Assembly (NCBI RefSeq): GCF_003121705.1
Contig: NZ_PYHR01000002.1
Span: 3,348,001 to 3,412,000 of the forward strand
Direction: 5' to 3'
Source: Serinibacter arcticus
Lineage (GTDB): Bacteria > Actinomycetota > Actinomycetes > Actinomycetales > Beutenbergiaceae
DNA length: 64,000 nt
Shown: piece by piece, positions 11,487 to 50,394 of the stretch
How the letters are laid out: the number at the start of each line of letters is the position of its first letter
How positions within the stretch are numbered: the first letter of the stretch is position 1
The notes under the pieces: model-generated
What the model saw: only the letters and a program-made list of their open reading frames with translations
Database searches by the model: none
Told to the model about the DNA's origin: nothing
Made by a program: the position numbers and the translations under genes

Positions 11487-11543
11487 GTTGCGCGCACGGA
11501 TGGCCGCTTCGGCAGCCTCGAAGCGGCCATCAGCGCGCGGAAC
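11487..11543. repeat. 57-bp palindromic element, copy 1
   Basis: It starts with GTTGCGCGCAC and ends with GCGCGCGGAAC. The two halves form an imperfect inverted repeat (GATGGCCGCTTCG pairs with CGAAGCGGCCATC) around a short loop. The element overlaps the last codons and the TGA stop (minus strand, 11530-11532) of the DUF559-type gene. Copies of exactly the same length lie at 12603-12659 and 12818-12874. Confidence 0.85.
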
Positions 11544-12447
11544 GTCGGGGTACGCCGGCGTCGGACAGCCGGCGGAGCAGCGCGGCCGGGTGCCGGAGGG
11601 TCTCGGCCGTGGCCTCGTGGACGGTCCAGCCCGCCTCGCGGAAGCGCTGGTGGCGCTCGACGTCGATCCGCCACGTCCTGGGGTCGGTGCGGTGGACGTC
11701 GCCGAGGTACTCGATCGAGAGCTTCAGCTCCGGGAAGCTGAGGTCGGGCCGTCCGAGGTACGCGCCGACGTCGTCGAGCATCGGGGCGTTGACCACCGGG
11801 CGGGGGAACCCCGCGTTCTCGATGATGCGCCGCAGGATCGTCTCCGGGACCGAGTCCGTCCCGGGGCAGACGTGGGCCAGCGCCGCCCTGGCGCGGGCGA
11901 TCCCGTGACACGTCGGTGCTCCCTCGACGTGGGCCGCGAGCGACTCGAGGGTGGCGAGCGGATCGACCCGTCGGGTCAGGGCGTCCCCGACCATGACGAG
12001 CTCCTCGACGGTGAGGCTCTTGGCCAGGTGGAGGAACGTCGTCGCCCCGGTCGTGTACCGCAGGGTGCCCACCGTGTGGAACGAGCCGTAGGGCGGGACG
12101 ATCCGGCACTGCACCCCCGGCCTCCGCACCCGTGCCGAGGCGCTCACGACGATCAGCTCCAGATCGTGCGCCGACCGGAACCGAGGCGGCAGATCCACCC
12201 CGAGGAGGCGCAGGGCGGTGAGCCGGCCGAAGACGTGACGCCGGTCCAGCAGCGGGGCGAGCGCGAGTGCCCGGCCCCGGGTGTCGTCCTCCTCGGGTCC
12301 CGGTCCGTCGACACGGGCGCCCACGAACGGGGACGAGAGCGACGGATGGCGCAGGCGTCGTCGGGACGCGCCCGCGGCGACCGCCGACGCCGTCGTGAAG
12401 CCTGCGGCGGCGAGGCCGGGCGGGAGGGGCTGGAGTGGTGTGGGCAC
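11530..12447 (-). CDS. DUF559-type protein (endonuclease-like C-terminal domain)
   Basis: About 305 residues from a GTG at 12447; an in-frame ATG at 12516 would add 23 residues, and neither start has a convincing ribosome site. The C-terminal third matches the actinobacterial DUF559 pattern, a restriction-endonuclease-like fold: LGRPDLSFPELKLSIEYLGD, then HRTDPRTWRIDVER and FREAGWTV. The N-terminal half resembles the conserved region often linked to AbiEi-like proteins. Many such genes are scattered in actinomycete genomes without known function. The 3' end, including the stop codon, is formed by a 57-bp palindromic element, so the natural C-terminus may have been altered by it. Confidence 0.75.
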   Translation of the reverse strand: MPTPLQPLPPGLAAAGFTTASAVAAGASRRRLRHPSLSSPFVGARVDGPGPEEDDTRGRALALAPLLDRRHVFGRLTALRLLGVDLPPRFRSAHDLELIVVSASARVRRPGVQCRIVPPYGSFHTVGTLRYTTGATTFLHLAKSLTVEELVMVGDALTRRVDPLATLESLAAHVEGAPTCHGIARARAALAHVCPGTDSVPETILRRIIENAGFPRPVVNAPMLDDVGAYLGRPDLSFPELKLSIEYLGDVHRTDPRTWRIDVERHQRFREAGWTVHEATAETLRHPAALLRRLSDAGVPRRSAR

Positions 12448-12602
12448 GCCCCAGGAGTACCCGCGCCGCGTCACTCCGTGCGGCCCGCCACGGAGCACCT
12501 GGGGACAGCCGCCCATCCGGCCACCCTGGGGACAGCCCCCGCCGTCGCCGCCGCTGCGGCCGTCGCCGCCGCTGCGGCCGTCGCCGTCGCCGCTGGGCGT
12601 CC

Positions 12603-12659
12603 GTTGCGCGCACTCCTGGTCGGTTCAGCACCGCCGAAGCGGCTATCGGTGCGCGCAAC
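12603..12659. repeat. 57-bp palindromic element, copy 2
   Basis: Starts GTTGCGCGCAC and ends GTGCGCGCAAC, so the outer 11 bp are perfectly inverted. The inner left arm is the most diverged of the three copies; the right arm keeps CGAAGCGGCTATCGGTGCGC. It lies in the 271-bp divergent gap between the DUF559-type gene and rsgA. That gap also holds a CCGCTGCGGCCGTCGCCG tandem near 12547-12590. Confidence 0.85.
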
Positions 12660-12718
12660 GGGGGACGGCCGGGCCCCGGCCGGGGAAATGGGTGGACGGC
12701 GTTCCTAGCGTCGGGGGC

Positions 12719-13885
12719 ATGACTGGCTCCTCCTGGCGGATCTCCCGTGTCGACCGGACGCGGGTCCTCGTCGTCCCCGACCTCGGTGCCGGCGGCGTCC
12801 CCGCCGCCGTCGACCGCGTTGCGCGCACCGGTGGTCGCTTCGGCGACGGTGAAGCGACCATCGGTGCACGCAACGGGCCGGGGGAGGCGGCCCCGGCACC
12901 GGCGGCGGCCACGGCACCGGCGGCCCCCGTCGGTGTCGGGCTGCGGCCCGGCGGCGTGCTGCCCGCCGTCGTCGGCGACGACGTGACCCCCGCCGTCGGC
13001 GACCGCCTCGTCACCGCGCCCGGGCACCGACCCGGCGACCCCGACCGGTTCCTCGTCGCTCCCCGCACCGGCGAGCTCCTGCGCGACACCGTCGACCGCA
13101 CGTCGCGCTCGCAGGTGGTCGCGGCGAACGTCGACGTCGTGCTGGTCGTCGAGCCGCTCGACCCGTCGCCGTCGATCGGACGCGTGGAGCGCCTCGTGAC
13201 CCTCGCCTGGCGGTCGGGGGCGAGCCCCGTCGTCGTCCTCACGAAGACCGACCTCGTCCACGACACCGCCCACTGGCTGGCCGACCTCGCGGCCGCCGCG
13301 CCCGGTGTTCCGGTCCGGGCGGTCTCCGCCACGACGGGCGACGGCGTGGCGGAGCTCCTGCGCCTCGTCGAGCCCGGCGCGACGCTGGTGGCGGTCGGGC
13401 GCTCCGGTGCCGGGAAGTCGACGCTGGTGAACGCGCTCGTCGGCGAGGACGTCATGGCGACGGGGGAGCGGCGCGGCGACGGCAAGGGCCGCCACACGAC
13501 CACGCACCGCGAGCTGGTCGACCTCGCGCTGCCCGACGGCGGACGCGCCTGGCTCATCGACACCCCGGGACTGCGCGCCGTCGGACTCGTCGCGGACGAG
13601 GAGTCCGTCGAGGCGACCTTCGCGGAGGTCGCCGACCTCGCCGCCGGGTGCCGGTTCGGGGACTGCCGGCACGAGCGCGAGCCGGGCTGCGCCGTCGTCG
13701 CCGCCCTCGAGGAGGGGACGCTGTCCGAGCGTCGCTACGCCGCCTACCGCGCCCAGCTCCGCGAGGCGCACCACGCCGCGGTTCGGGCCGACGCCCGACT
13801 GGCCGCCGCCCAGCGCACGGACTGGAAGCGTCGGACGGTCGCCATGCGGGAGCATCATCGCGTCACGGGGAAGGGACGGCGCTGA
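12719..13885 (+). CDS. rsgA: RsgA, ribosome small-subunit maturation GTPase, carrying an in-frame repeat insertion
   Basis: A 388-residue circularly permuted GTPase acting in late 30S assembly. The motif order is typical of RsgA/EngC: G4 TKTD (about 175), then G1 GRSGAGKST (226-234) and G3 DTPG (about 281), followed by a zinc knuckle (CRFGDCRHEREPGC, about 311-324). The N-terminal OB-fold region is abnormal: residues 34-52 are encoded exactly by copy 3 of the 57-bp palindrome and are followed by an Ala/Pro-rich stretch. Because 57 is a multiple of three, the frame is kept. ATG 12719 is chosen because upstream codons lie in repeat sequence. Confidence 0.92.
   Translation: MTGSSWRISRVDRTRVLVVPDLGAGGVPAAVDRVARTGGRFGDGEATIGARNGPGEAAPAPAAATAPAAPVGVGLRPGGVLPAVVGDDVTPAVGDRLVTAPGHRPGDPDRFLVAPRTGELLRDTVDRTSRSQVVAANVDVVLVVEPLDPSPSIGRVERLVTLAWRSGASPVVVLTKTDLVHDTAHWLADLAAAAPGVPVRAVSATTGDGVAELLRLVEPGATLVAVGRSGAGKSTLVNALVGEDVMATGERRGDGKGRHTTTHRELVDLALPDGGRAWLIDTPGLRAVGLVADEESVEATFAEVADLAAGCRFGDCRHEREPGCAVVAALEEGTLSERRYAAYRAQLREAHHAAVRADARLAAAQRTDWKRRTVAMREHHRVTGKGRR
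12818..12874. repeat. 57-bp palindromic element, copy 3, inside rsgA
   Basis: Starts GTTGCGCGCAC and ends GTGCACGCAAC, with inner arms GGTGGTCGCTTC and GAAGCGACCATC. This is the best-paired copy: most arm differences are compensated on the other arm, since GGTCGC pairs with GCGACC here while copy 1 has GGCCGC and GCGGCC. It is in phase with rsgA codons and encodes VARTGGRFGDGEATIGARN. Confidence 0.88.
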
Positions 13886-50240: not shown

Positions 50241-50289
50241 CGTTCGTGGGGCGGGCCTGCTCGTGGGTCGTGCGCGGGGCGTTGGCCGC

Positions 50290-50394
50290 GCCCTTGTGGT
50301 TGTTGCCCGACGGCGAGGGTGCCCTTGTGGTCGTGATCTGGTGCCCGCGGCGACCACAAGGGCGCGGTGGAGTGCGCGCGGCGACCGCAAGGGC
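50290..50394. repeat. Mirror-symmetric 31-bp-period repeat array
   Basis: GCCCTTGTGG occurs at 50290-50299 and 50321-50330; its inverse CCACAAGGGC is at 50354-50363 and the one-base variant CCGCAAGGGC at 50385-50394. Each pair has a 31-bp period and the two pairs face each other, so nested hairpins are possible. Confidence 0.8.

Follow-up and report, generated by a model that had tools for sequence, protein, structure and literature searches.

Rickettsia palindromic elements are palindromic repeats that are able to sit in frame in genes. In a REPtron, the gene of an HUH enzyme (RAYT or TnpA-REP) is bracketed by its own REP palindromes, hairpins of 20-40 bp which are dispersed, mostly extragenic and near 3′ ends, several classes being possible in one genome (PMC3733652, PMC8266576). 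Among the EDxHD homing endonucleases, I-Bth0305I has been described as a dimer whose target measures nearly 60 bp (PMC3943268), and AbiEi of the type IV toxin-antitoxin system AbiE is described as binding inverted repeats and repressing itself (PMC7319586).

The window, i.e., the whole stretch of 64,000 nucleotides that was analysed, contains a gene, P0002, located between two copies of a 57-bp palindrome which we call family A (Table 1). As in a REPtron, an enzyme gene is bracketed by palindromes which are dispersed, mostly extragenic, near gene 3′ ends and present in several classes in the genome. Unlike the HUH enzyme, the P0002 protein resembles in its predicted structure a double-strand nuclease of the Vsr/EDxHD type, and unlike the REP hairpins, family A consists of two half-sites in 57 bp, lacks the GTAG/CGTC tag and gives no support for selection on pairing. 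With I-Bth0305I the protein shares the predicted C-terminal fold, and the length of the target described for the I-Bth0305I dimer is similar to that of the palindrome; unlike in the EDxHD homing endonucleases, no intron or intein was seen at P0002, an AbiEi-like domain stands in front of the nuclease domain and the gene lies between two whole, uninterrupted sites which belong to a dispersed repeat. As in AbiE systems, an AbiEi fold is predicted (residues 68-217) and an inverted repeat lies upstream of the gene, whereas the AbiEi part of P0002 is joined to a nuclease domain in one protein, an AbiEii toxin gene was not seen alongside at the window locus, and the repeat also occurs after the gene and scattered elsewhere. 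Finally, one copy is in frame inside rsgA, as would be expected of a Rickettsia palindromic element; in contrast to these elements only 1 of 25 copies lies wholly in a gene, and the family is linked to a nuclease gene.

We lean towards the reading that the nuclease and the 57-bp palindrome on either side of its gene belong together as enzyme and cognate DNA site, the two constituting a selfish, REPtron-like unit. Binding, cutting and spreading of the palindrome by the nuclease is what we infer. In the open-access PMC literature, to which our search was largely confined, we found no report linking DUF559/Vsr-type nucleases to palindromic repeats.

Table 1. Positions of the palindromes and genes in the window
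Feature	Position	Strand	Remarks
Family A palindrome, copy 1	11487..11543		3′ end of nuclease gene P0002; carries the P0002 stop codon
Nuclease gene P0002	11530..12516	-	328 aa from the longest ATG start (start uncertain); between family A copies 1 and 2
Family A palindrome, copy 2	12603..12659		Upstream of P0002; intergenic, between P0002 and the divergent rsgA
rsgA (P0001)	12719..13885	+	Hosts copy 3
Family A palindrome, copy 3	12818..12874		In frame within rsgA; translated as VARTGGRFGDGEATIGARN
Family B half-sites (GCGCCCTTGTGGTCG type)	50286..50367		Genome 3398286-3398367; second nuclease-linked family

Dispersal and structure of the 57-bp palindrome

The preliminary description had reported three copies of 57 bp within 1.4 kb, one forming the end of a gene, one intergenic and one inside rsgA. 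The copies, their lengths and their gene contexts were borne out, and a scan of the whole window with both 11-bp ends (at most four mismatches in total, spacing 20-59) returned these three only. The layout consists of an 11-bp outer arm GTTGCGCGCAC, three free bases, an inner arm TGGCCGCTTC (TGGYCGCTTC, a 7-10-bp inner arm), a free 9-bp centre and then the inverse of these parts. Inspection by eye also showed short GCCGTCGCCGCCGCTGCGG-rich repeats in tandem just upstream of copy 2 (window positions 12540-12595).

A search of the complete genome, which had been proposed as a check, took the family far beyond the three local copies: with a sequence-only model made from 13 family A copies we found 25 full copies and one half copy (at 3023898) in the 4.06-Mb window genome (G000), which belongs to the genus Serinibacter. 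All 25 copies are ungapped and exactly 57 bp long, and the conserved unit extends to 59 bp with the kept ends C-GTTG and CAAC-G, the preceding C and the following G being present in 24/25 copies each. According to genes called by our own codon model, 13 copies lie in tandem spacers, 8 in convergent and 3 in divergent spacers and 1 inside a gene, so that 24 of 25 are not wholly inside a gene; a gene 3′ end adjoins 21 of the 25. Relative to spacer length, convergent spacers are over-used (8/24, p 0.005) and divergent spacers are under-used (p 0.014). The suggestion that a length divisible by three lets the element enter genes carries little weight with a single copy of 25 in a gene, and an advantage of in-frame insertion is not supported. 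All copies are found within one 1.88-Mb arc comprising 47% of the chromosome (genome 1607808-3492511); random placement on a circle, with 15 clusters taken as independent, gave such an arc in 8 of 20,000 trials.

The flanks of nine copies at 3.24-3.51 Mb could be aligned to two sister species, G001 and G002 (S. arcticus K3-2). Four sites (3492511, 3275557, 3319683 and 3320719) were read letter by letter, a set which leaves out 3339103 and 3340445, and family A is absent from all four in both sister species (for 3275557 in G001 the left side only was read). The family A model gave no match at E<=0.01 in all of G001, and the rsgA translation of S. arcticus is devoid of the 19-residue stretch matching copy 3. 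At the position of P0002 both relatives carry other palindromes. As the family is absent from both sister species at four sites, it has probably spread in the lineage of the window genome, gain in this lineage being a simpler reading of the aligned sequences than loss in both relatives. Between the nuclease gene and pfkB, where the two other Serinibacter genomes have rsgA, G001 apparently lacks it (contig C1, 205527-205850).

The three window copies had been described to fold as a hairpin. Their RNA folds on the plus strand are indeed better than those of dinucleotide shuffles (z -6.2, -5.3 and -9.0; 0/200 shuffles match each), the folds on the minus strand being weaker (z -6.4, -2.6 and -7.7; 0, 4 and 0 of 200 shuffles). 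The additional claim that changes in one arm are matched in the other, suggesting selection on pairing, did not survive the comparison of all 25 copies (24 distinct), since compensations are fewer than in shuffles. Paired cells amount to 87.0% vs 88.5% in shuffles, with 500/500 shuffles at least as high, and one column pair (18/40) is changed on both sides vs 4.2 expected; at this pair 6 of the 24 distinct copies have both-sided changes vs 4 broken and 4 wobble pairs. The result was unchanged with 24 copies, leaving out the copy at 2146005. As left and right halves change independently of each other, the data lend no support to selection on hairpin pairing and agree better with double-stranded half-sites. 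Half-sites occur also as direct repeats, both in S. arcticus and in family B. Judged from these sequences, recognition as double-stranded half-sites appears to be the simpler reading.

The preliminary description had taken the palindrome for a REP/MITE-like mobile element. The dispersal, with 25 copies, 21 of them at gene 3′ ends, and empty sites in relatives agrees with that picture; the pairing selection and the proposed cause, a REP-associated tyrosine transposase, do not. A classical REP/MITE whose RAYT has been lost or missed, the bracketing of the nuclease gene being secondary, would account for the dispersed copies and for a location bias like that described for REPs (PMC3733652). Against this stands that the Y1 transposase profile PF01797 has no match at E<=0.01 in the window genome (the control of the search was positive in 6/14 genomes) and that within 6 bp of the family A ends the tag GTAG was found in 0/25 and CGTC in 2/25 copies. 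Adding the unsupported pairing selection and the fact that 35 of 42 nuclease loci lie between matched palindromes (see below), we rejected a RAYT origin of family A and regard this explanation as highly improbable.

The nuclease gene between two copies

The P0002 protein was modeled from an 18-row alignment with a mean pLDDT of 83. In this predicted model, residues about 68-217 resemble the AbiEi antitoxin 6y8q (Z 11.7, rmsd 3.3, 129 aligned), and residues about 222-323 resemble both the homing endonuclease I-Bth0305I 3r3p (Z 10.7, rmsd 2.9, 93 aligned) and Vsr 1cw0 (Z 10.2, rmsd 2.4, 95 aligned). These Z scores come from a second comparison carried out after Foldseek, which with this model returned no PDB match at E<=0.001 and listed 3r3p with probability 1.00 but E 0.044. 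A sequence profile search agrees weakly (3r3p, E 0.0086). Among the members of the alignment, 8/18 match Pfam MTES_1575 and 8/18 DUF559; E225, D258, E269 and R288 belong to the nine columns invariant in the 18 rows, and the histidine after GD varies. P0002 is hence probably a DNA-cutting protein composed, according to the model, of an AbiEi-like domain and a domain like the Vsr/EDxHD homing endonucleases. A two-domain dimer on a 57-bp palindrome with two half-sites would fit, by analogy, both the AbiEi and the I-Bth0305I precedents.

In Pfam nothing reaches the cut-off for P0002 itself (PF18741, E 0.036), and we therefore gathered its relatives by homology and alignment. NCBIfam gave a single weak and unrelated match. 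DUF559 (PF04480) could not simply stand in for the nuclease, since it finds one gene only in the genome, other than P0002. A profile of the nuclease family matches 169/198 genomes of the order at E<=1e-10. A search with P0002 at E 1e-5 hit 4 of 72,556 plasmid records and 1 of 50,697 phage records and thus gave no hint of a vehicle for horizontal transfer; of the plasmid relatives, two are named 'hypothetical protein' and 'DUF559 domain-containing protein'. P0002 is flanked by rsgA and by a gene that we took, on inspection by eye, for malic enzyme; at the window locus neither an AbiEii toxin gene nor a methylase was seen beside it.

The predicted AbiEi-like fold and the self-repression of AbiEi through inverted repeats described in PMC7319586 would also be in line with the upstream palindrome being an operator and the downstream one a terminator of a self-regulated gene of the AbiEi type, the scattered copies having arisen by ordinary duplication and serving as terminators at gene ends without being spread by the nuclease. 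The strong RNA hairpins of the window copies, the 21 of 25 copies beside a gene 3′ end and the over-use of convergent spacers speak for this. Terminators, however, require neither a common sequence nor a fixed length nor independent variation of the half-sites, whereas a length of 57 bp and two conserved arms are common to all 25 copies. Moreover one family stands on both sides of the gene, the element is missing at the orthologous gene ends that were read, and 57 bp at 25 places requires a mover. We consider the operator and terminator explanation unlikely.

Somewhat less probable still, in our view, is a defence device, with the nuclease directed against incoming DNA and the chromosomal palindromes serving as decoys, as sites of silencing or as self-marks. 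One PADLOC AbiEi model matches 8/18 homologs, and Vsr-like nucleases are listed among predicted defence proteins (PMC3710099), yet P0002 has no methylase or AbiEii partner in view, the scattered palindromes would be targets of the cell's own nuclease and the palindrome families differ between sister species.

Matching palindromes around related nuclease genes

The flanks of homologous nuclease genes were tested for palindromes without assuming a core. At 16 of the first 20 loci a palindrome on one side is matched across the gene. To count as bracketed, a locus needed a palindrome score >=11 and a match >=13 to the opposite flank; this criterion was fixed after these 20 loci had been examined and before 22 new loci were scored. 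The new loci stem from 22 additional genomes of the order and are the best matches among 198 genomes, not a random sample; of these 19/22 are bracketed, and most have a palindrome sequence of their own. Eight (L128-L135) of the 30 loci fetched repeated earlier ones and were excluded from this prospective count. For comparison, 5/163 control genes are bracketed, a rate which is raised because many control genes come from loci fetched for holding elements, true A or C elements flanking three of the five; with shuffled flanks the count is 1/210. The difference between the new loci and the control genes has a Fisher p of 1.6e-18, and it persists with a stricter flank match (14/22 vs 2/163 at >=15, 9/22 vs 2/163 at >=20). 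Altogether matched palindromes are present at 35 of 42 nuclease loci. The association of nuclease and palindrome is strong and specific to these genes. The bracketing across related genomes suggests that these are selfish genes of a type so far unrecognised, which would maintain their own DNA sites and spread them.

Four of the first 20 and three of the 22 new loci fail the criterion. Among them is the S. arcticus ortholog of P0002 (L110), which has family C half-sites visible on both flanks. Complete palindromes on both sides of the nuclease gene are found at L108, L115 and L124. The homologs of S. arcticus and of G043, G074 and G114, which belong to a second family of the order, are bracketed in the same layout with other outer arms.

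The window genome contains 10 homologs of P0002 at E<=1e-5, 6 of which are bracketed, with different palindrome sequences; L177, L179, L181 and L187 are not bracketed by the criterion. Three dispersed families are involved, A, B and H, each around a nuclease gene of its own. Family B, of which 15 dyads with CGACCGCGCCC arms were read, surrounds the homolog at 1711066-1711785 (L186), and family H (GAGACCGATGCGT), of which three more scattered copies exist, the homolog at 1393258-1393950. In S. arcticus 6/7 homologs pass the criterion, two of them just at the cut-off. The three Serinibacter orthologs of P0002 have three different palindromes in a layout common to all; the ortholog of G001 contains one in-frame stop, and its own palindrome has two further copies within the 400 kb fetched.

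We looked for a palindrome core common to the order. Families with this layout have in common the core TGGYCGC-N15-GCGRCCA, which is found 29 times in G000 (families A and B) vs 4 times for the reversed control, 11 vs 1 times in G074, 7 vs 0 in G114 and 6 vs 2 in G043, the outer arms being common within each genome; as the reversed control reaches 10 in G030, counts of 5-7 alone prove no family. Of 119 genomes, GYGCACNNNTGGYCGC is clearly in excess in G000 (32 vs 3 reversed) and G002 (21 vs 6) only, and we rejected a common core on this ground. GTCGCTTC-N9-GAAGCGAC is present in 3/297 genomes, and no palindrome is hence universal. When palindrome and protein distances were compared for 42 of 50 loci, the Mantel Pearson correlation was 0.147 (15/5000 permutations as high) and the Spearman correlation -0.011 (2826/5000 as high). 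The correspondence is weak, palindrome similarity tracking protein similarity only among close proteins, and counts against the pairing of enzyme and site. Related nucleases with different palindromes suggest that site and enzyme drift together.

Possible mode of action and pairs around single genes

Each site would consist of two inverted half-sites around the free 9-bp centre, and a dimer of the AbiEi-Vsr protein would contact one half-site per subunit. The AbiEi-like part may read the DNA and probably represses its own promoter via the upstream palindrome copy, while the Vsr/EDxHD domain would cut within or near the palindrome centre. Breaks at the sites would be repaired from other copies, whereby the family would be homogenised and spread in trans might be aided; solitary palindromes would then be scattered non-autonomous members. 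Recombination between the two bracketing sites would leave a solo site, and a cut solo site repaired from a full unit could insert the nuclease gene. If central cuts were joined in an error-prone manner, the length would hardly have stayed at an unbroken 57 bp around a random centre. Against the reading as a selfish unit speaks that the nuclease gene sits between two whole sites and does not split one, as a classical homing gene does.

We give an even chance to the broader proposal that actinobacterial genomes harbor several independent populations of palindromes of ~57 bp, each kept and spread by its own homing-type AbiEi-Vsr nuclease which reads double-stranded half-sites, as a convergent counterpart of the REPtron built on an unrelated enzyme, with the specificities of enzyme and site changing together between sister species. 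If this is true, very common nuclease genes would gain a role as keepers of scattered DNA palindromes, and REP-style genome parasitism would have arisen at least twice, from enzymes that are unrelated. Specificity could be learned from dozens of natural pairs of an enzyme and its ~57-bp target, and a class of intergenic palindromes which can be mistaken for terminators would be explained.

Five family A pairs, the one around P0002 among them, each enclose exactly one called gene, as if the elements could define movable one-gene units. One of these pairs of copies (L067, 3319683-3320719) flanks a gene of 289 aa; the unit of two copies and gene is wholly missing in G001, and S. arcticus has at this place a palindrome from another of its own families. 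At L068 (genome 3339165-3341840) two neighbouring genes have similar N-termini (EEWLDLDD), and one of them is bracketed by family A copies, an arrangement that resembles a tandem duplication.
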